Shown here: positions 2,686 to 51,645 of the stretch, piece by piece
Layout of the letters: every line of letters starts with the position of its first letter
Position numbering within the stretch: the stretch's first letter is position 1
Assembly (NCBI GenBank): GCA_016212825.1
Contig: JACRDS010000084.1
Location: 1 to 51,995 of the forward strand
Origin: Elusimicrobiota bacterium
GTDB lineage: Bacteria; Elusimicrobiota; Elusimicrobia; UBA1565; UBA9628
Direction: 5' to 3'
DNA length: 51,995 nt
Notes under the pieces: generated by a model
Database searches by the model: none
Told to the model about the DNA's origin: nothing
What the model saw: the letters and a program-made list of their open reading frames with translations, nothing else
Translations under genes and position numbers: made by a program

Positions 2686-3210
2686 CTAATTCTTGATGAC
2701 CTTGAGGCGGAAGAAGAGGTCCCGGGCCGGAAAGATGAAGGCGAAGTATTTCTCGAACAGGTCGGGCGAGAGCACGGCGATGAGGCGGCCGGGCAGGCAG
2801 AGCAGTCCCAGGCCGAACTCGAGGCGCCGTTCCTCGATCTCGTAGCGCGCCGCGGCATAGTCATAGCGCGCTTCTTTGGTCACGTAGTCCATGGACCGGT
2901 AGCCCATGTGCAGGCAGTGCGTGGGGTCGGTCCAGGAGTTCATGGACGAGTAGTGCGGGGTCCAGACCAGGACCTGGGCGCCGGGCTTAGAGATGCGGTG
3001 GATCTCCTCCATGACCTTGAGGACGTCGCCGAGGTGCTCCAGGATGTGCGAGAGGCGCACCTCGTCGAAGGTCCCGTCCGGGAAAGGCCAGGGGAACCGG
3101 CGCAGGTCATGGACCACGTCCACGCCCGGGCCAGCCACCCGGTCCACGCCCACGGCGCCCGGCGTCTTCTGGGCGCCGCAGCCCAGCTCCAGGATCTTCG
3201 TCTCGGCCAT
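2686..3210 (-). CDS. Class I SAM-dependent methyltransferase (Methyltransf_11-like)
   Basis: KILELGCGAQKTPGAVGVDR; LSHILEHLGDVLKVMEEIHRISKPGAQVLVWTPH. Confidence 0.85.
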   Translation of the reverse strand: MAETKILELGCGAQKTPGAVGVDRVAGPGVDVVHDLRRFPWPFPDGTFDEVRLSHILEHLGDVLKVMEEIHRISKPGAQVLVWTPHYSSMNSWTDPTHCLHMGYRSMDYVTKEARYDYAAARYEIEERRLEFGLGLLCLPGRLIAVLSPDLFEKYFAFIFPARDLFFRLKVIKN

Positions 3211-3220
3211 GGCTCCTATT

Positions 3221-4605
3221 CTAACAAACCTGCGCCAAGCGCGGGGTCTGCGGGGCCGGCCGGCGCTCGGGCAGGCCGCCTTCAGCCGCGGGATCCCAGC
3301 CCTTGATGCTCCAGCGCAGGATGCGTCCCAGGTAGGCGAAGTTCACGGCCGCTGCGTAGGGCAGGCCGCGTGCGCCCAAGGGCCGCAGGGCCTGGCGCCA
3401 GAGCCGGCGCAGGATGCGCCAGGGCTGGTAGAACTCGCGGGTGAGCCAGTCATGGCCCGCCTGCAGGGACTCGGCGGTCATGCGCCGCGGCTGGAAGACC
3501 ACGTGATGGTAGTCGTAGTGGGCCCAGTTGCGGTCCAGGATGCGGCTCGCCATCTCCTTGAAGAAGCGCGTGCCGGGCAGGGGCGTCAGGACCGAGACCT
3601 GGATCATGTCGATCTCAAGTTCGTCGAGCAGGCGCAGGGTCTTGGCGAAGACCCCCGGACCGTCCGCGTCGAAGCCCAGCACCACGCCGGCTTCCACCGC
3701 GATGCCGTTCTGGTGCAGGATCCGGATGCGCGAGCGGTACTCTTCCACTTGATTGAAGCCTTTGTCCACGCTCTCCAGGGCCCGGTCCGAGAAGGTCTCC
3801 AGCCCGACGAAGACTCCCACGCAGCCGGATTCGGCGGCCAGGCGGATGAGCTCCGGGTCGTCCGTGGACTTGAGCGTGACCTGGCTGACCCAGTGCTTGC
3901 GCAGGGGGGCCAGCGCCCGGAACAGGGCCTTGGCGTACTCCGGCTCCGCCGCCAGGGAGTCGTCCACGAGCAGGAAGAACCGCTCGGGGAGGGCCGCGAC
4001 CTCGGCCGCCACCTCTTCCGCGGGTCGGCGCCTCTGGGCCGCGCCGTTGAAGGCCGAGACCGAGCAGAAGGCGCAGGTGTGCGGGCAGCCCCGCGTGGCC
4101 TGCACGGCCTGGACCGTGGCGTAGCTGGTGGTGGCAGCAGCTCCCGGAGCGGCCGGCGCAGTCCCTTGAGGCTGTGCGGGGCCGGGGCTTGGTAGATCCC
4201 GCGCAGGCGCCGGTTGCGGGCGTCTTCCAGGACCTTCTCCCAGACGCCTTCGACCTCGCCGCTCACCACAGCGTCGGCGTGGGCCAGGGCCTCCTGGGGC
4301 CGGAAGGTGGGATGCATGCCGCCCAGGACCACGGGGATGCCCCTGGCGCGGAAAGCGTCGGCCAGCTCGTAGGCGCGCGGCGCCACCGCGGTCATGGCCG
4401 TGATGCCCACCAGGTCGAAGTCATCGTCCCAGGGCACGTCGTCGACCTGCTCGTCGATGACCCGGATCGTGTGCCCCTTCGGGGTGGCGGCAGCCACAGT
4501 GAGCAGGCTCAGCAAGGAGAAGCGGAAGGTCTTGCCGTTGCAGAGCCAGGTCCGCCCTACGTTGCGCCAGCGCCCGCTAGACGGTGCGATGAGCAGGATT
4601 CTCAT
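3221..4605 (-). CDS. Cobalamin-binding-type radical SAM protein, reading frame apparently interrupted by a frameshift
   Basis: N-terminal half (MRILLIAPSSGRWRN..DLVGITAMTAVAPRAYELADAFRARGIPVVLGGMHPTF..) is in the frame of ORF 3604..4623. The radical SAM half (AVQATRGCPHTCAFCSVSAFNG..) is in the frame of ORF 3221..4105. The frames switch around 4124-4140. Confidence 0.75.
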
Positions 4606-7159: not shown

Positions 7160-7213
7160 GGCATGCCTCCTTGTTATTGGTTTATATATGAACTAATAGA
7201 CACGAAAAAACGC

Positions 7214-7699: not shown

Positions 7700-7786
7700 G
7701 GCACCCTCTCTGTTGCTACATGAATTGTACACTACTAAACTAATATTGTCAAGACCCACGGGGGCCTACTTGGTATCATTCATATG

Positions 7787-8971: not shown

Positions 8972-10898
8972 ACAGGCTGGTCAGCAGCAGGAACTGCGCC
9001 GCGTGCGCGCCGGTCGGCAGCGAGACCGCGATGCGCGAGCGGTAGGCCGCGAGCTTCTCGCAGAGTTCCCGCGCCGCCGCCTCTTCCATGGTGCGCACCC
9101 GCGCCAGGTCCAGCACCAGCCGGCCCCGGGTCTGCTCCAGGTGCGCCTTGAGGCGCGCGGAGAGCTCCGCGCCGTGGGCGTGCCGCAGGATGCCGTCGAG
9201 GCGGACCAGCAGCTCACGGCGCGACGGTGCCGCGTAGGCGCGCAGGCTCAGGCCCTCCCACTTCTGGCCGAACCTCTCGTTGAGCCAGGCCGGGGCGAAG
9301 CCCTCGGGCGGCAGGCGGTAGGCGTGGCGCTCGAGCTTCGGATGCTGGAAGGCGTTGAGGCGCAGCTTGAGCCCGGTCCAGAGCGCCAGGCCGGCCGCGG
9401 CCCAGGCCAGGAGCCTCTCGGAGGCGGTCGGCCGCCCGAACTCGGCGTGCACGCGGCGCCGCAACGCGGCCACCCAGCGCCGCGAAGATGAGTTCGGGCC
9501 GAAGAGCTCTCCGGCCAGAAAGATCGGGTAGGCCTTGCGCAGCTCCTCCGCGAAGCGCGCGGCCTTGAGCCGCAGGAACGGCTGGGGCGAGTCCTTGTGC
9601 GCGAGCCAGCCGCGCAGCATGGTGTCGGCCACGCGGTAGATGGACGGGCCCAGCCGCGCGAACTCGGTCTTGAAGCAGCGGTCCTGGGCGCCCTCGATCT
9701 GCGCGGCCGACATGGTCGGGTGGCTGGTCAGGGACTCGAAGCCGCTGGCGTCGTGCCAGTACCGGGCCGGGTCCTGGGCGTAGTGCTCGCGCAGGGTGCC
9801 GCCGGCCTTGACCCGCTCGTAGAGCGGGGTGCCGGGGTTGGGGTTGTAGATCATGAACTGCGAGAGGTCGGGGCGCAGGGCCAGGAGCCCGGCCAGCTCC
9901 GAATCGATGACCGCGGGGGACTGGTAGTCGAAGCCCACGATCATGGAGGCGAGTATGGTGATGCCGTTGTCGTGGAGGCCGCGGAAGATCTCCTCGGGGG
10001 ATCGGCCCACGCGCTTGTCGTAGCCGGAGCGCGTCCCTTCGTAGCCGATCCAGACCCCGTCGATGCCCATGGCGAGCAGCTCCTGGGGCTCGTAGAGGCT
10101 CAACGCCTTCATGCTGGCGAAGACGAAGATGGAGAGGGCCTTGCCCCCGGCCGCGACCAGGTCGCGGAACTCCAGGGCCCGCCGCCGGTCGAGGAGGAAC
10201 TCCTCGTCGAGTATGGTGAACTGCGCCGCGGGGTTGATGGCCAGGTGCTCCTGGACCACCGCGTAGACCTGCGCGCCGGTCTCGAGCAGGGGCAGGTGCT
10301 GGCGCTTGAAGAAATGCGAAGTGGAGCAGAAATCGCAGCCGTTGGGGCAGCCCAGGCCGGCGAAGATCATCCCGGTGTAGGAGACGGTCTGGGAGAAGAC
10401 CTTCAGGCGGCTCTCCGTGACGGGGTGCTTGTGGCGCGCCAGCGGCGGCTGGCCGAGCAGTCCGCGCATGAAGGCCACGCCCTCGCCGCGGCAGACGTGG
10501 TCAGCGTAGGGGGCCAGGGCCTCTTCGGGCAGAACCGTGCCGTAGCCGCCCAGGACGATCTGGCTCTGCGGGGCGTGCTCGCGCACGAGCCGGGCCAGCT
10601 CCTTCATCTTGTGGTAGGTGACGACGATGAAGGAGATGCCCACGTAGTCATAGCCTTTCTTCAGCTCCCGGATGAACTCCTCTTTAGAGGGATAGTGCAG
10701 CACGACGGTCGGGTTCTCCAGGTTCTCGGCGATGTAGTCGAGCGAGAACTGCTTGTGGACGGCGCGCGGGGAGAACATGCCCTGGGCGCGGGTGACCTGC
10801 GCGTGCAGGAGCTCGTAGCCGACGCTCTCGGCGTCGCCGTAGGCGGTGCCCAACGGCCGCGCCACGCTGGTCAGCAGGAGTCTGGGTTCCATTCTCAT
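8949..10898 (-). CDS. Cobalamin-binding-type radical SAM protein with C-terminal STAS-like domain
   Basis: N-terminal KKGYDYVGISFIVVTYHKMKELARLVREHAPQSQIVLGGYG; GLGCPNGCDFCSTSHFF (CxxxCxxC); C-terminal LLVRLDGILRHAHGAELSARLKAHLEQTRGRLVLDLARVRTMEEAAARELCEKL. Confidence 0.85.
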   Translation of the reverse strand: MRMEPRLLLTSVARPLGTAYGDAESVGYELLHAQVTRAQGMFSPRAVHKQFSLDYIAENLENPTVVLHYPSKEEFIRELKKGYDYVGISFIVVTYHKMKELARLVREHAPQSQIVLGGYGTVLPEEALAPYADHVCRGEGVAFMRGLLGQPPLARHKHPVTESRLKVFSQTVSYTGMIFAGLGCPNGCDFCSTSHFFKRQHLPLLETGAQVYAVVQEHLAINPAAQFTILDEEFLLDRRRALEFRDLVAAGGKALSIFVFASMKALSLYEPQELLAMGIDGVWIGYEGTRSGYDKRVGRSPEEIFRGLHDNGITILASMIVGFDYQSPAVIDSELAGLLALRPDLSQFMIYNPNPGTPLYERVKAGGTLREHYAQDPARYWHDASGFESLTSHPTMSAAQIEGAQDRCFKTEFARLGPSIYRVADTMLRGWLAHKDSPQPFLRLKAARFAEELRKAYPIFLAGELFGPNSSSRRWVAALRRRVHAEFGRPTASERLLAWAAAGLALWTGLKLRLNAFQHPKLERHAYRLPPEGFAPAWLNERFGQKWEGLSLRAYAAPSRRELLVRLDGILRHAHGAELSARLKAHLEQTRGRLVLDLARVRTMEEAAARELCEKLAAYRSRIAVSLPTGAHAAQFLLLTSLFKTYHGG

Positions 10899-10904
10899 AC
10901 CCCA

Positions 10905-10934
10905 TTGTAACAACTCTGCGAGTCTTCATATCAT
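10905..10934 (+). promoter_or_regulatory. Promoter of asnB-like gene
   Basis: TTGTAA (10905-10910), 18-nt spacer, TATCAT (10929-10934), ATG at 10944. It overlaps a minus-strand TACAAT (10909-10904) for the divergent radical SAM gene. Confidence 0.5.
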
Positions 10935-10943
10935 TGCAGGAGC

Positions 10944-12845
10944 ATGTGCGGCATCTGCGGCATCGTCTATAAGGACGGCACTTCCCCGGACCAGGGACGG
11001 CTCAAGGCCGCCAACGACCGGCTCACCCACCGCGGCCCGGACGACGAGGGATTCTATATCGACGGCCCGGCAGGCCTGGGCATGCGGCGCCTGGCCATCA
11101 TCGACCTCAACACCGGCCACCAGCCCATCTCCTCGGCGGACGGCCGCTGCACCATCGTCTTCAACGGCGAGATCTACAACTTCCTGGAGCTGCGCGAAGA
11201 GCTCGAGTCCCAGGGCTATGTCTTCCGCACCAAGACCGACACGGAGGCCATACTCGCCCTCTACGAGAGGCTGGGCACCGGCTGCGTCAAGCGCCTGCGC
11301 GGCATGTTCGCCATCGCCATCTGGGACAAGAGCGAGCAGAGCCTCTTCATCGCCCGCGACCGCATCGGCAAGAAGCCCTTGGTGTACACGGAGCAGGGGG
11401 GCTTCCTCGCCTTCGCCTCGGAGTTGCGCTCCCTCTTCGTCTGGCCGGGCGTGCCGCGCGAAGTCGACCCCGAGGCCATAGACCTCTTCCTCTCCCTCCA
11501 GTACATCCCTTCTCCCAAGACCATCTACAGCGGGGTCAAGAAGCTGCCCCCGGGGCACTTCCTCCTCCACCGCAAGGGGAAGACCGTGGTCGAACGCTAC
11601 TGGGACATCCCCGTGGGCCAGCCCCCCATCACCGCGGACGTGGAGGAGGCCAAGCGCATCGTGGTGGACAAGCTGCGCGAGGCCGTGCGCCTGCGCCTCA
11701 TCTCGGACGTGCCCCTGGGAGCCTTCCTCTCCGGGGGGGTCGATTCCTCGATCATCGTAGCCCTGATGGCCGAGATGTCCTCCCAGCCGGTCAAGACCTT
11801 CTCCATCGGCTTCGACGAGGCCGAGTTCTCGGAGCTTCGTTTCGCCAAGGAGGTCGCCCGGCGCTACGGCTGCGAGCACACCGAGTTCGTGGTCAAGCCC
11901 GAGATGGCCGACGTGCTGCCCAAGCTCGCCTGGCATTACGGCGAGCCTTACGCCGACCCTTCAGCCTTGCCTTCCTATTACGTGGCTCGCGAGACCCGGC
12001 GCTTCGTCACCGTGGCCCTCAACGGCGACGGCGGCGACGAGAACTTCGCCGGCTACGTGCGCTACTTCGCCATGAAGCTGGCCCGCTATTTCGACCTCAT
12101 GCCCGGCCCGGCGCGCTCGGCGCTGCGCTCCGGCGCGGAACTCCTGCCCGACTGGCGCGCGCCCTACGGCTTCTCCTGGCGCCTCAAGCGCTTCCTGCGC
12201 TCCGCCCTCTTCACCGACCTGCCCCGGCGTCATCTCAAGATGATCTGCTACTTCACGGAGGAGGATAAGGAGGGCTTCTACTCTCCCGATTTCGCGGCCC
12301 GGCTCGGCGCGGCCCGGGGCGCGGCCCAAGGCTACATGGAGAGGGCTTTCGCCGCCTGCCCGGACGAGGACTTCGTCAACCGCATGCTCTACGTGGACTT
12401 CAAGACCTATCTCCCGGAATGCCTCATGGCCAAGATGGACATCGCGGCCATGGCCAATTCCCTGGAGGGGCGCTCGCCCTTCCTGGACCACGAGTTCGTG
12501 GAGACCGTCTTCCGCATGCCCGGGGATTGGAAGCTCCGGGGCCTGCGCGGCCACAAGTGGCTCCTCAAGGAGGCTTTCCGCGACAAGCTCCCGCCCCTCA
12601 TCTTCAACCGGGGCAAGATGGGTTTCGGCATACCCCTGGGCTCATGGTTCCGCGGCCCGCTCAAGGACTACTGGGCCGACCATGCGCTCGGAGCCAAGGC
12701 CTTGGCGCGGGGGTATTTCCAGGAGGCGGCCCTGCGGCGCCTCTGGGACGAGCACCAGAGCGGGCGGCGGGACCACGGCTACCGCCTCTGGGCCCTGCTC
12801 ATGCTGGAACTCTGGCATGAGGCCTGTCTCGAGAAGGGACAATAG
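10944..12845 (+). CDS. asnB: Asparagine synthase (glutamine-hydrolyzing)
   Basis: MCGICGIVYKDG (N-terminal nucleophile Cys), RLAIIDLNTGHQPISSADGRCTIVFNGEIYNF, LSGGVDSSIIVALMAE, SLEGRSPFLDHEFVE. Confidence 0.95.
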   Translation: MCGICGIVYKDGTSPDQGRLKAANDRLTHRGPDDEGFYIDGPAGLGMRRLAIIDLNTGHQPISSADGRCTIVFNGEIYNFLELREELESQGYVFRTKTDTEAILALYERLGTGCVKRLRGMFAIAIWDKSEQSLFIARDRIGKKPLVYTEQGGFLAFASELRSLFVWPGVPREVDPEAIDLFLSLQYIPSPKTIYSGVKKLPPGHFLLHRKGKTVVERYWDIPVGQPPITADVEEAKRIVVDKLREAVRLRLISDVPLGAFLSGGVDSSIIVALMAEMSSQPVKTFSIGFDEAEFSELRFAKEVARRYGCEHTEFVVKPEMADVLPKLAWHYGEPYADPSALPSYYVARETRRFVTVALNGDGGDENFAGYVRYFAMKLARYFDLMPGPARSALRSGAELLPDWRAPYGFSWRLKRFLRSALFTDLPRRHLKMICYFTEEDKEGFYSPDFAARLGAARGAAQGYMERAFAACPDEDFVNRMLYVDFKTYLPECLMAKMDIAAMANSLEGRSPFLDHEFVETVFRMPGDWKLRGLRGHKWLLKEAFRDKLPPLIFNRGKMGFGIPLGSWFRGPLKDYWADHALGAKALARGYFQEAALRRLWDEHQSGRRDHGYRLWALLMLELWHEACLEKGQ

Positions 12846-18193: not shown

Positions 18194-18214
18194 TGCGCTA
18201 TAATGGACAGCGTC

Positions 18215-19627
18215 ATGAAGGTCACCGTCCTCATGCCGGTCTACAACGAGCGCTGGACCCTGCGCGAGATCATGCGCCGGGTCTACGAGCAGAGCGCCCT
18301 GCTGCACGAGGTGGTGGCCGTGGACGACGGCTCCACGGACGGCAGCGCCGCGCGCCTCAAGGAGCTCGAGGCCCGCTACGCCGCGCACAAGGTCCCTCTG
18401 CGCGTCGTCTACAAGGGGAAGAACGAGGGCAAGGGCGCGGCGCTCAAGGCCGGGCTGGCCGCGGTGACCGGCGACGTGGTCATCATCCAGGACGCGGACC
18501 TGGAGTACAACCCCAAGGATTACGCCACGCTGCTGGCCCCGCTGGCCGACGGCCGGGCCGACGTGGTCTACGGCAGCCGCTTCCTGGGAGGCACCGCCCG
18601 CCGGGTGCTGCTGTTCTGGCATTCCGTGGCCAACCAGATTCTCACCGTCTTTTGCAACCTCTTCTCCGACCTCAACCTGACCGACGTCTGGACCTGCTAC
18701 AAGGTCTTCCCCGCGGCCATGCTGCGGCGCCTGGACCTCTTCTCCCGGGGCTTCGGCTTCGAGCCCGAGGTGACCATCAAGATCTCCCGGCTGGGCTGCC
18801 GCATCTACGAGGTCCCCATCGGCTACGAGGGGCGCACCGAGGAGGAGGGCAAGAAGATCGGGTTCAAGGACGCGGTCACCGGCACCTTGGCCATGCTCCG
18901 GGCCTGGCTGTCCTCGGGCGAGGGGCACCGGACCCACGGAGAGGCCACCTTGCGCATCATGGCCAAGGCCGGCCGCTACAACAAGTTCCTCTTCGAGCGG
19001 ATCGAGCCCTACCTGGGCCGCGAGGTCATCGAGGTCGGGGCCGGAACGGGCAACATCTCGCGCAACCTCCTGGACCGCGACCGGCTGGTCCTCAGCGACG
19101 CGGACGCCGGCTACGTGGAGATGCTGCAGAGGACTTACAAGGATTGGGGCTACGTGAAGACCATGGCCCTGGACCTGGCCCGCCCGCAGGCGCTCCCCGC
19201 GGAGCTGGCCGGGAACTTCGACAGCGTGGTCAGCTTCCAGGTCCTCGAGCACATCCAGGACGACGCCGCGGCGCTCGACGCCATGCGGCGGCTGCTCAAG
19301 ACCGGGGGGAGGGCCCTGCTGATGCTGCCCGCGCACCAGTCCCTCTTCGGCACCCTGGACCGGGAGCTCGGCCACTTCCGCCGCTACGACGAGGCCGGAC
19401 TGCGCGCCAAGCTCGCGGCCGCGGGCCTCGAGGTCGAGGTCCTGCGCTTCTTCAACCCCGTGGCCGTGCCCGGCTGGTGGCTCAACGGCCGCGTGCTCAG
19501 GCGCCGCCTCATCCCGGACTTCCAGCTGGCGGTCTTCGAGAGCCTCCACTTCCTGGTGCGCTGGCTGGCGCGCTGGGACATCCGCTTCGGGCTGGTGATC
19601 TTCGCGGTCGCCCGCAAGAAGGCGTGA
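18215..19627 (+). CDS. GT2 (dolichyl/undecaprenyl-phosphate sugar synthase-like) fused to class I methyltransferase
   Basis: MKVTVLMPVYNERWTLREIMRRV..VVAVDDGSTDGS..VVYGSRFLGG; C-terminal VIEVGAGTGNISRNLLDRDRLVLSDADAGYVEML..FQVLEHIQDD. Alternative ATG at 18203. Confidence 0.88.
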   Translation: MKVTVLMPVYNERWTLREIMRRVYEQSALLHEVVAVDDGSTDGSAARLKELEARYAAHKVPLRVVYKGKNEGKGAALKAGLAAVTGDVVIIQDADLEYNPKDYATLLAPLADGRADVVYGSRFLGGTARRVLLFWHSVANQILTVFCNLFSDLNLTDVWTCYKVFPAAMLRRLDLFSRGFGFEPEVTIKISRLGCRIYEVPIGYEGRTEEEGKKIGFKDAVTGTLAMLRAWLSSGEGHRTHGEATLRIMAKAGRYNKFLFERIEPYLGREVIEVGAGTGNISRNLLDRDRLVLSDADAGYVEMLQRTYKDWGYVKTMALDLARPQALPAELAGNFDSVVSFQVLEHIQDDAAALDAMRRLLKTGGRALLMLPAHQSLFGTLDRELGHFRRYDEAGLRAKLAAAGLEVEVLRFFNPVAVPGWWLNGRVLRRRLIPDFQLAVFESLHFLVRWLARWDIRFGLVIFAVARKKA

Positions 19628-28155: not shown

Positions 28156-28184
28156 TTGATGTGGGCTCGGGGCTATCGTAGAAT
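28156..28184 (+). promoter_or_regulatory. Promoter of the 28194 gene
   Basis: TTGATG (28156-28161), 17-nt spacer, TAGAAT (28179-28184), ATG at 28194. The -10 lies within the inverted repeat GGCTAT(28171-28176)..ATAGCC(28183-28188). Confidence 0.6.
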
Positions 28185-40166: not shown

Positions 40167-40226
40167 GGTGCTGATGGTATCAAATTATGGGATTTCCCGT
40201 TTTTCAGTTCTCGGCAGGTGAAGCCG

Positions 40227-40255
40227 TTGACTTCCTGATGCGGGTGCAATACAAT
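40227..40255 (+). promoter_or_regulatory. Sigma70-like promoter placing the predicted TSS at the start codon
   Basis: TTGACT (40227-40232), 17-nt spacer, TACAAT (40250-40255); ATG at 40263. Confidence 0.7.
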
Positions 40256-40262
40256 CTGGTAT

Positions 40263-40790
40263 ATGCCGGTCATAATATTGGCCGTCGATGACGAGCTCGT
40301 CATTCTTCAGCTCTTGAAGGATTACCTGGAGGGAGTGGGCTACAGCGTGCTCATCGCCAGCGACGGCTACAGCGCCATGACCATGTTCGCTCAAGGCAAG
40401 CCCCAGCTCGTCATCCTCGACTTCAACATGCCGGCGGGCACGGGGGGCGACGTGCTCCAGCGCATCCGGGGGCGGGCGGACGGCGGCATGGTGCCGGTGA
40501 TCTTCCTGACCGCCGCCAACCTCATCGAGGTGCAGATGCAGGTGCTGCCCTCTCCTATCGTACGTTTCCTCAGCAAGCCCGTGAACTTCGCGGAGCTGGA
40601 GGCGGCCATCAAGGAGCTCCTGGGGCCGGCGGCGGTGCCCAAGCCGGCTCCTGCCGCCCCTCCCGCGGCTTATCCAGCGGGCTTCGTCCCGTCGCCGCCC
40701 CCTGCGTTCGACTCCGTGGACAAGGACCAGGGAGAGACCACGGTCCTGGACCTCGACGCGGACGACACTCCGCCGGCCGGGCAGAAGTAG
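40263..40790 (+). CDS. Response regulator receiver-domain protein with Pro/Ala-rich tail
   Basis: IILAVDDELVILQLLKDYLEGVGYSVLIASDGYSAM..QLVILDFNMPAGTGGDVLQRIR..VIFLTAAN..FLSKPVNFAELEAAIKELL. Confidence 0.93.
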   Translation: MPVIILAVDDELVILQLLKDYLEGVGYSVLIASDGYSAMTMFAQGKPQLVILDFNMPAGTGGDVLQRIRGRADGGMVPVIFLTAANLIEVQMQVLPSPIVRFLSKPVNFAELEAAIKELLGPAAVPKPAPAAPPAAYPAGFVPSPPPAFDSVDKDQGETTVLDLDADDTPPAGQK

Positions 40791-40828
40791 CCGGTCCGCG
40801 AAGGTCCCTCTTTTGCGATAATAGGGCC

Positions 40829-42148
40829 ATGGACAAGTCCGAGGAGCTCCGCCGGCGCATCCTGGAACTGGTGGAGCAGTACGCCCGCGAGGCGCACGTC
40901 CCGCGGCCCTTCGTCCCCGGCCGGGACTTCGTCAACTACGGCGGCCGGGTGTTCGGGGCGGAGGAGCTGCGCGGCGCCACCGAGGCCGTCCTCGACTTCT
41001 TCCTCACCGCGGGCCGTTTCGCCCAGCGCTTCGAGTCGGATTTCGCCGCCTATTTCAAGGTCCCCGGAGCCTTCCTGGTGAATTCCGGCTCCTCCGCCAA
41101 CCTGCTGGCCCTCGCCGCCCTGACCTCGCCCAAGCTGGGCGAGCGCCGGCTCAAGCCCGGCGACGAGGTCATTACCGTGGCCGCGGGCTTCCCCACCACC
41201 CTGGCCCCCATCATCCAGAACCGCCTCGTCCCGGTCCTGGTGGACGTGGGCGTCGGCGACTACACCGCCATCCCGGAGCGCATCGCCGGAGCCGTCGGCC
41301 CCAGGACCCGCGCCGTCATGATGGCGCACACCATGGGCAACCCCTTCGACCTCGACGCGGTCATGGCCGCGGTGAGGAAGCACGACCTCTGGCTCGTGGA
41401 GGACAACTGCGACTCCCTGGGCTCGACCTACCGGGGCCGGCTCACCGGGACCTTCGGCGCCCTCTCCACCTTCTCCTTCTATCCCGCCCACCATATCACC
41501 ATGGGCGAGGGCGGCTGCGTCATCGCGGCCGGGGAGCGCGCCGAGGAGTTGGGACGCATCGTGCGCTCCCTGCGCGACTGGGGCCGCGACTGCTGGTGCG
41601 CGGGTGGGAAGAGCAACACCTGCGGCCAGCGCTTCTCCCAGCGCTTCGGGTCTTTGCCCCTGGGCTTCGACCACAAGTACGTCTACTCGCACGTCGGCTA
41701 CAACCTCAAGCTCACCGACCTGCAGGCCGCCATCGGCTGCGCGCAGTGGCCCAAGCTCCCGGACTTCATCGCCCGGCGCAAGGCCAACTTCGCGTATCTG
41801 CGCAAGGCCCTGGCCCCCTACGAAGACCGCCTGGTCCTGCCCTTCGCCACGCCGGGCTCCGACCCGGCGTGGTTCGGCTTCGTGATCACGGTGCGCGAGG
41901 GCGCGGGCTTCTCGCGCAACGACCTGCAGAAGCACCTGGAGGAGCGCAAGGTCGAGACCCGCTCCCTCTTCGCCGGCAACCTGCTGCGCCACCCCGCCTT
42001 CCTCGACATCGAGCACCGGGTCTGCGGCGGCCTGGAGAATACCGAGCGCATCGCGGCGGGAACCTTTTTCGTGGGCGTGTATCCGGGCCTCGACCAGGCC
42101 CGCCTGGCCTATATGGCCGAGGCCTTCCGGGACTTCTTCAAGCGCTGA
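40829..42148 (+). CDS. rfbH: CDP-6-deoxy-D-xylo-4-hexulose-3-dehydrase (E1), RfbH/AscC-type, DegT/DnrJ/EryC1 fold
   Basis: FVNYGGRVFGAEELRGATEAVLDFFLTAGRFAQRFE; STFSFYPAHHITMGEGG (His in place of PLP Lys); RDCWCAGGKSNTC giving C-X1-C-X7-C iron-sulfur spacing. Confidence 0.92.
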   Translation: MDKSEELRRRILELVEQYAREAHVPRPFVPGRDFVNYGGRVFGAEELRGATEAVLDFFLTAGRFAQRFESDFAAYFKVPGAFLVNSGSSANLLALAALTSPKLGERRLKPGDEVITVAAGFPTTLAPIIQNRLVPVLVDVGVGDYTAIPERIAGAVGPRTRAVMMAHTMGNPFDLDAVMAAVRKHDLWLVEDNCDSLGSTYRGRLTGTFGALSTFSFYPAHHITMGEGGCVIAAGERAEELGRIVRSLRDWGRDCWCAGGKSNTCGQRFSQRFGSLPLGFDHKYVYSHVGYNLKLTDLQAAIGCAQWPKLPDFIARRKANFAYLRKALAPYEDRLVLPFATPGSDPAWFGFVITVREGAGFSRNDLQKHLEERKVETRSLFAGNLLRHPAFLDIEHRVCGGLENTERIAAGTFFVGVYPGLDQARLAYMAEAFRDFFKR

Positions 42149-49658: not shown

Positions 49659-50410
49659 GGCGCCTTGCCGCTCCGCCAGAGGTCTTCGAGGAGCCGCAGA
49701 TCGCGCATGGTGTCCATGCATTGCCAGAAGTCGCCGTGCTGGTAGGCCATGAGCTGGCCCTTCGCGGCCAGACGCTCGAGCGGAGCCTGCTCGAAGATCG
49801 TCCGGTCGCCCTCGATGTAGTCCGCGACCGCGGGCTCCAGGACGAAGAACCCGCCGTTGATCCAGCCCTCGCCGATCTGGGGCTTCTCCACGAAGCGGGA
49901 CACGCGGTTCTTCTTGAACTGCAGGCCGCCGAAGCGCGCCGGGGGCCGCACCGCGGTCACCGTGGCGGCCTTGCCGTGGCTGCGGTGGAACGCCAGGAGC
50001 TTCTTGAGGTCCACGTCGGAGAGGCCGTCGCCGTAGGTGAGCATGATGGTCTGGCCCTTGGCGTAGCGGAGCAGCCTCTTGACCCGGCCCCCGGTCTGGG
50101 TGGCTTCTCCCGAATCGAGCAGATGGACGGTCCAGTCCTCGGCCGGCCGGCCCAGATGCTCCACCCGGCCTTGGGCCAGGTGCACGACGAGCTCCTGGGC
50201 CCGGTGGTGGTAGTCGATGAAGTAGTCCTTGATGACCTCGCCCTTGTAGCCCAGGGCCAGCATGAACTCCTTGAACCCGAAGCGCGCGTAGTGCTTCATG
50301 ATGTGCCAGAGGATGGGCCGGCCGCCGACCTCCACCATGGGCTTGGGGATGCGGTCGGTCATCTCGGAGAGGCGCGAGCCCATGCCGCCGGCGAGTATGC
50401 CGACTCTCAT
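49637..50410 (-). CDS. rfbF: Glucose-1-phosphate cytidylyltransferase
   Basis: MRVGILAGGMGSRLSEMTDRIPKPMVEVGGRPILWHIMKHYARFGFKEFMLALGYKGEVIKDYF; LTYGDGLSDVDLKKLLAFH; GWINGGFFVLEP; FWQCMDTMRD. Confidence 0.95.
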   Translation of the reverse strand: MRVGILAGGMGSRLSEMTDRIPKPMVEVGGRPILWHIMKHYARFGFKEFMLALGYKGEVIKDYFIDYHHRAQELVVHLAQGRVEHLGRPAEDWTVHLLDSGEATQTGGRVKRLLRYAKGQTIMLTYGDGLSDVDLKKLLAFHRSHGKAATVTAVRPPARFGGLQFKKNRVSRFVEKPQIGEGWINGGFFVLEPAVADYIEGDRTIFEQAPLERLAAKGQLMAYQHGDFWQCMDTMRDLRLLEDLWRSGKAPWQPRGR

Positions 50411-50452
50411 GAGGCCAATGTTAGCAATTCTTCCCGGCGAAAAGAAGCGGCC

Positions 50453-51619: not shown

Positions 51620-51645
51620 CGGGAGACATTATATACCATGTCCCC

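Follow-up and report, generated by a model that had tools for sequence, protein, structure and literature searches.

Leaderless genes of bacteria carry a recognizable signature, a TANNNT that lies approximately 12 nt ahead of the start; such genes were designated 'TA-led' by Zheng et al. in 2011 (PMC3160421). In the high-GC groups of that study, only positions 1, 2 and 6 of TANNNT were strong (PMC3160421). The leaderless phyla named by Zheng et al. do not include Elusimicrobia, and the group 'Other Bacteria' (8/20 genomes) was not itemised (PMC3160421). More recently, Zhong et al. (2025) reported TANNNT 6-7 bp before the open reading frame (ORF) in approximately one third of the genes of Deinococcus-Thermus, where the -35 element is mostly dispensable and a GGAG motif is found at other genes, and their domain-wide scan reports 'common phyla' only (PMC12340547). 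In addition, the Actinobacteria (for example, Mycobacterium), which also have a high GC content, produce up to 40% leaderless transcripts beside Shine-Dalgarno-led ones (PMC9581028). A full-text search of the main texts of openly available papers found no earlier report of leaderless genes in Elusimicrobiota; one match names the phylum only in a table of anti-Shine-Dalgarno sequences, and another deals with a chaperone of M. tuberculosis.

In this study, a window of 51,995 nt (contig C35, 70% GC) was taken from a 3.56-Mb draft genome (186 contigs, 85.7% complete), and the nearest rpsB relatives of this genome are uncultured Elusimicrobiota MAGs (87% identity and lower). The likeness to the TA-led genes lies in TANNNT approximately 12 nt upstream of the start beside genes led by Shine-Dalgarno sites, with positions 1, 2 and 6 as the strong ones, as in the high-GC groups. 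Zheng et al. described the TG extension for low-GC genomes, whereas it is strong in the present genome despite a GC content of 70% (PMC3160421). The promoter role of the motif was proven by mutation in Deinococcus, whereas in Elusimicrobiota, a different phylum, it is predicted from sequence (PMC12340547); likewise, transcription starts were measured in Actinobacteria, an unrelated phylum, but are predicted here (PMC9581028). The mechanism is very probably the TA-led leaderless mode described before (Zheng 2011; Zhong 2025). What is new here is the phylum, together with an extended -10 element in a high-GC genome and a pattern confined to certain lineages.

Boxes and start codons in the window

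A preliminary description of the window had listed 11 pairs of a -10 hexamer and a start codon. All of these hexamers and starts were recovered, and every start was ATG (Table 1). The gaps between hexamer and ATG were 5, 6, 7, 7, 7, 7, 7, 8, 9, 9 and 10 nt, and several of the listed examples would accordingly give leaders of 1-4 nt rather than of zero. The sequence check also placed TTGACT ahead of TACAAT at 40250, at a distance of 17 nt, and TTGATG ahead of TAGAAT at 28179. GATAAT at 40817 does not fit TANNNT, and the sequence overlapping TATAAT at 51628..51633 also yields TANNNT at exactly -12.

Table 1. Candidate promoter boxes and related features of the window
Feature	Position	Strand	Remarks
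-10 box TACAAT	40250..40255	+	gap 7 to ATG 40263; TTGACT -35, 17-nt spacer; predicted leader 0-1 nt
Response-regulator receiver gene, predicted leaderless start	40263..40790	+	
-10-like GATAAT, TTTTGC before it	40817..40822	+	gap 6 to ATG 40829 (DegT/DnrJ aminotransferase)
-10 box TAGAAT	28179..28184	+	gap 9 to ATG 28194; TTGATG -35
-10 box TATAAT	18199..18204	+	gap 10 to ATG 18215 (glycosyltransferase/methyltransferase)
-10 box TATCAT	7774..7779	+	gap 7 to ATG 7787; further ATG at 7784
-10 box TATCAT	10929..10934	+	gap 9 to ATG 10944 (asparagine synthase)
-10 box TACAAT	10904..10909	-	gap 5 to ATG 10898 (B12-binding/radical SAM)
Claimed -10 box TAGAAT	3218..3223	-	gap 7 to ATG 3210; weakest example
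-10 box TACCAT, TTTGA before it	40174..40179	-	gap 7 to ATG 40166; divergent from 40263
-10 box TAACAT	50418..50423	-	gap 7 to ATG 50410 (nucleotidyltransferase)
-10 box TATAAT	51628..51633	-	gap 8 to ATG 51619 (TPR protein)
Shine-Dalgarno AAGGAGG, contrast case	7160..7175	-	before ATG 7159 (DUF2339 membrane protein)

Two statements about these sites had to be narrowed. The first was that no Shine-Dalgarno site is visible at any of them, which does not hold for 10944 (GCAGGAGC-ATG) and 3210 (TAGGAGCC-ATG), where AGGAG precedes the start; at 1-2 nt from ATG, however, this motif is too near for a normal Shine-Dalgarno site. The second was that the boxes belong to non-coupled genes. The gene at 3210(-) is not a clean operon head, as it begins 10 nt past a same-strand radical-SAM ORF, and the TAG of its presumed box is the stop codon of that upstream ORF. 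The 3210 example is doubtful.

All start codons in this study are predicted. Genes were called by a dicodon model that is blind to promoter and ribosome-site motifs, and its start calls disagree with those of the preliminary description at 40263, 50410, 18215, 10898 and 7787. Competing starts lie close by for the ORFs at 10898 and 7787, and a second ATG at 18203 overlaps the TATAAT box of 18199..18204. The boxes might thus be real promoters followed by true translation starts further downstream and therefore by ordinary 5' leaders, and the many in-frame starts of GC-rich genes would favour such a reading. The N-termini of several proteins argue against it, and it is considered very unlikely. 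The start at 40263 is sound because the PF00072 domain of the response regulator begins at residue 5 with profile position 1, and the GT2 domain of the glycosyltransferase begins at residue 4 when counted from the start at 18215. The start at 50410 is also sound because homologs with 63-84% identity align from residue 1. Moreover, class II glutamine amidotransferases need Cys2 as their nucleophile, and the start of the asparagine synthase at 10944 is fixed because its N-terminus, MCGICGIV, holds this catalytic residue.

Position and anatomy of the boxes across the genome

The preliminary description had proposed positional enrichment of TANNNT at operon heads, compared with shuffled regions, as a check of its claim. 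This enrichment was found in both of two samples of the source MAG, which covered 839 kb (sample 1) and 807 kb of other contigs (sample 2) for a total of 1.65 Mb. Sample 2 served as a blind replicate with the gene-calling model fixed beforehand; it comprised all of C58-C122 (first 20 kb), and some of its stretches were initially picked knowing hits before the set was completed. In sample 1, TANNNT started at -12, which corresponds to a 6-nt gap, in 43/297 operon heads, whereas 300 dinucleotide-preserving shuffles averaged 3.45 and never exceeded 10. At -13, -14 and -15, the counts were 18, 13 and 11, respectively, over a background of approximately 3-6. The operon-internal genes of sample 1 had the motif at -12 in 2/252 cases, and sample 2 gave 38/289 heads versus 3/274 internal genes. 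When both samples were pooled, 81/586 heads carried TANNNT at exactly -12, a feature of the first genes of transcription units that is nearly absent within operons. Among control loci, 7/70 heads from Deinococcus-Thermus (the positive control) and 1/85 heads from mixed other phyla (the negative control) had TANNNT at -12. The boxes had been placed 7-12 nt before the start; the tail to approximately 12 nt was retained in these data, but the mode is sharper and lies at a gap of 6 (hexamer at -12..-7), followed by 7. Roughly 20-40% of the genes that lead an operon have a box 6-7 bases before the start.

The peak did not depend on gene calls. Within the 1.65 Mb, TANAAT-gap-ATG occurred 58, 35, 19 and 18 times at gaps of 6, 7, 8 and 9 nt and 15, 11 and 17 times at gaps of 10, 11 and 12 nt, with a mean of approximately 6 elsewhere. 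A peak at gap 6 was also seen for GTG (13 versus approximately 4), and no peak at this gap was found for TTG or CTG in the same gene-call-free counts. In the whole genome, 110 sites matched TANAAT-N6-ATG, whereas the reversed pattern had 5 matches and a gap of 4 had 12. The original examples were hand-chosen and degenerate hexamers are common, which could suggest chance and selective picking in an AT-poor genome; this explanation is refuted by the positional peak in the shuffle, blind-sample and gene-call-free tests, and its probability is negligible. Furthermore, a peak that is one nucleotide sharp relative to ATG and GTG and missing for TTG and CTG is not expected if translation truly starts downstream.

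The boxes resemble sigma-70 -10 elements, and their positions 3-5 favour T, A and A. In the genes with TANNNT at -12, the third and second bases ahead of the box are T (57%) and G (63%), respectively, which constitutes an extended -10 element. In 43% of these genes a T precedes the box at a distance of 23 nt, which indicates a weak -35 element with a 17-nt spacer. The base at -1 was a pyrimidine in 82/97 of these genes versus 318/492 unboxed heads (P 8e-5). The preferred transcription start site is a pyrimidine followed by a purine, and the pyrimidine at -1 therefore agrees with transcription starting at the A of ATG. TANNNT at -16..-11 was found in 157/362 divergent heads versus 30/224 co-directional heads that have 60 nt or more ahead of them.

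An AT-rich stretch before the start might also act as a translational signal, through low structure or bS1 binding, rather than as a promoter, and a later survey noted that an AT-rich bias at -20..-10 may also reflect S1 sites (PMC5397173). For the present boxes this is hardly credible. The motif is a sigma-70 -10 element in TG-extended form, preceded across a 17-nt spacer by a -35 T, it is found at operon heads and not at the internal genes counted above, where a translational signal would be equally needed, and the same motif in Deinococcus acts at transcription (PMC12340547).

Genome-wide leaderless and near-leaderless expression is, in our judgement, highly probable as the best explanation of the boxes. 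The widespread leaderless transcription that had been proposed is supported by the positional TANNNT peak and by the exclusion of Shine-Dalgarno sites, the start sites being inferred from sequence. In the proposed mechanism, RNA polymerase carrying the primary (housekeeping, sigma-70-type) sigma factor would bind the -10 box TANNNT, best as TATAAT or TAGAAT, usually with the upstream TG extension (consensus about ATTTGnTANNNT) and with only a weak -35 element. RNA would begin approximately 7 nt past the box, and for the most frequent gap this point coincides with the first base, A or G, of the start codon. It is very probable that many messages start directly at this codon, and a message of this kind would have no room for a Shine-Dalgarno site because its RNA starts there. 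The ribosome would then initiate on the 5'-terminal or near-terminal AUG or GUG, and the operon-internal genes and a minority of heads would rely on classical Shine-Dalgarno sites. Both the actual transcription start and the translation of a leaderless message are predicted steps of this scheme. Gaps of 8-12 nt, which make up much of the signal, would give leaders of 1-6 nt rather than true leaderless messages.

Several minor observations concern the arrangement of the boxes. The genes at 10898(-) and 10944(+) have two predicted back-to-back promoters within a 45-nt intergenic region. Boxed divergent pairs with 34-49 nt between the start codons were seen in the window (10899-10943) and at L206 897/947 and L258 2178/2213, and a box was present on both sides in 20/90 divergent pairs of sample 2. 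At -40, exactly 28 nt ahead of the -10 box, a GGCCC/GCCCC element was found in 13-14/43 boxed promoters of sample 1 versus 1/38 of sample 2 and was rejected as not replicated. Its variants GGCCC, GCCCC and GACCC occur in approximately one third of the boxed promoters of sample 1 (for example, L141 complement of 17559 and L004 complement of 10208), and 11 of the 18 genome-wide matches to GSCCC-N23-TANNNT-N6-ATG lie within sample 1. This element probably reflects chance in the sampling or else a regulon confined to that part of the genome.

Conservation in relatives and spread in Elusimicrobiota

The conservation of the promoters was tested on rpsB-region loci of relatives. The gene identified by its sequence as cdsA heads an operon and carries a box in 8 relatives, and its 6-nt gap is invariant. 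In these promoters, the block at -18..-7 (ATTTnG-TARAAT) is 89% identical, compared with 23% for the 6 gap bases and 32% for the 27 bases upstream. The conserved cdsA N-terminus, MLLPR, directly follows the box, which also argues against translation starts further downstream. The box is absent from relatives in which cdsA is apparently operon-internal. The 6-nt gap is likewise retained in several orthologs of the gene that precedes rpsB.

A survey of the gap-6/gap-4 ratio of TANAAT..ATG covered 199 Elusimicrobiota genomes, with the largest families summed in part. The ratio was 5.5 in the family of the window (14 genomes, one deviant genus set aside). A sister family, represented by one genome, had 4.8, two genera of a further family had 3.8 and the sampled part of family f3 had 1.7, whereas the sampled families of other classes had 1.1-1.2. 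The excess of the 6-nt gap is thus strong in the family of the window and in some related genera, and it is almost missing from other classes. Because the excess nearly vanishes in the other classes of the phylum, it is tentatively proposed that high-GC Elusimicrobiota moved many operon heads (up to approximately 40% of the divergent ones) to leaderless or 1-6-nt-leader expression from an extended -10 element, as a lineage-specific shift that was possibly independent of Deinococcota and Actinobacteria. The present findings would add a deep-branching and almost uncultured phylum to the bacteria in which leaderless messages are used extensively, which bears on whether leaderless initiation is ancestral or was repeatedly gained. 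Moreover, starts in these genomes may be misplaced by gene finders that depend on Shine-Dalgarno sites, and such starts can be corrected with the exact 6-nt rule. As a separate observation, the excess is almost gone in genus g2 (G071 and G095) of the window's family, though it is kept in the sister genera.

Shine-Dalgarno genes beside the boxed genes

The coexistence of two initiation modes had been suggested from a strong AAGGAGG at the genes 4605(-) and 7159(-), both of which carry ACAAGGAGGCATGCC-ATG, and the wider counts agree with this suggestion. Shine-Dalgarno sites precede approximately 28% of internal genes (149/526) and 26% of unboxed heads (128/492) versus 1% of the genes with TANNNT at -12 (1/97; P 2e-10 against unboxed heads). 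In the relatives, rpsB retains a GGAGG Shine-Dalgarno site. A 2024 survey gives the class Elusimicrobia with the anti-Shine-Dalgarno sequence CCUCCUUU (PMC10783764); a search of the source MAG found no 16S rRNA.

Furthermore, bS21 is encoded in the source genome (G000:C183:1831-1992), and no bS21 match was found in the control genomes of Thermus, Deinobacterium and Corynebacterium, all from groups in which leaderless genes are known to be abundant. The upstream regions of 4605(-) and 7159(-) are alike, with TATAAnCC-like boxes followed by the shared Shine-Dalgarno segment and ATG, and their proteins differ (B12-binding versus DUF2339). At 3221-4605(-) of the window, two overlapping frames of one strand encode a B12-binding domain (ORF 3607-4605) and a radical-SAM domain (ORF 3224-4105), respectively, which is probably one gene split by a frameshift that represents either an assembly error or a pseudogene.
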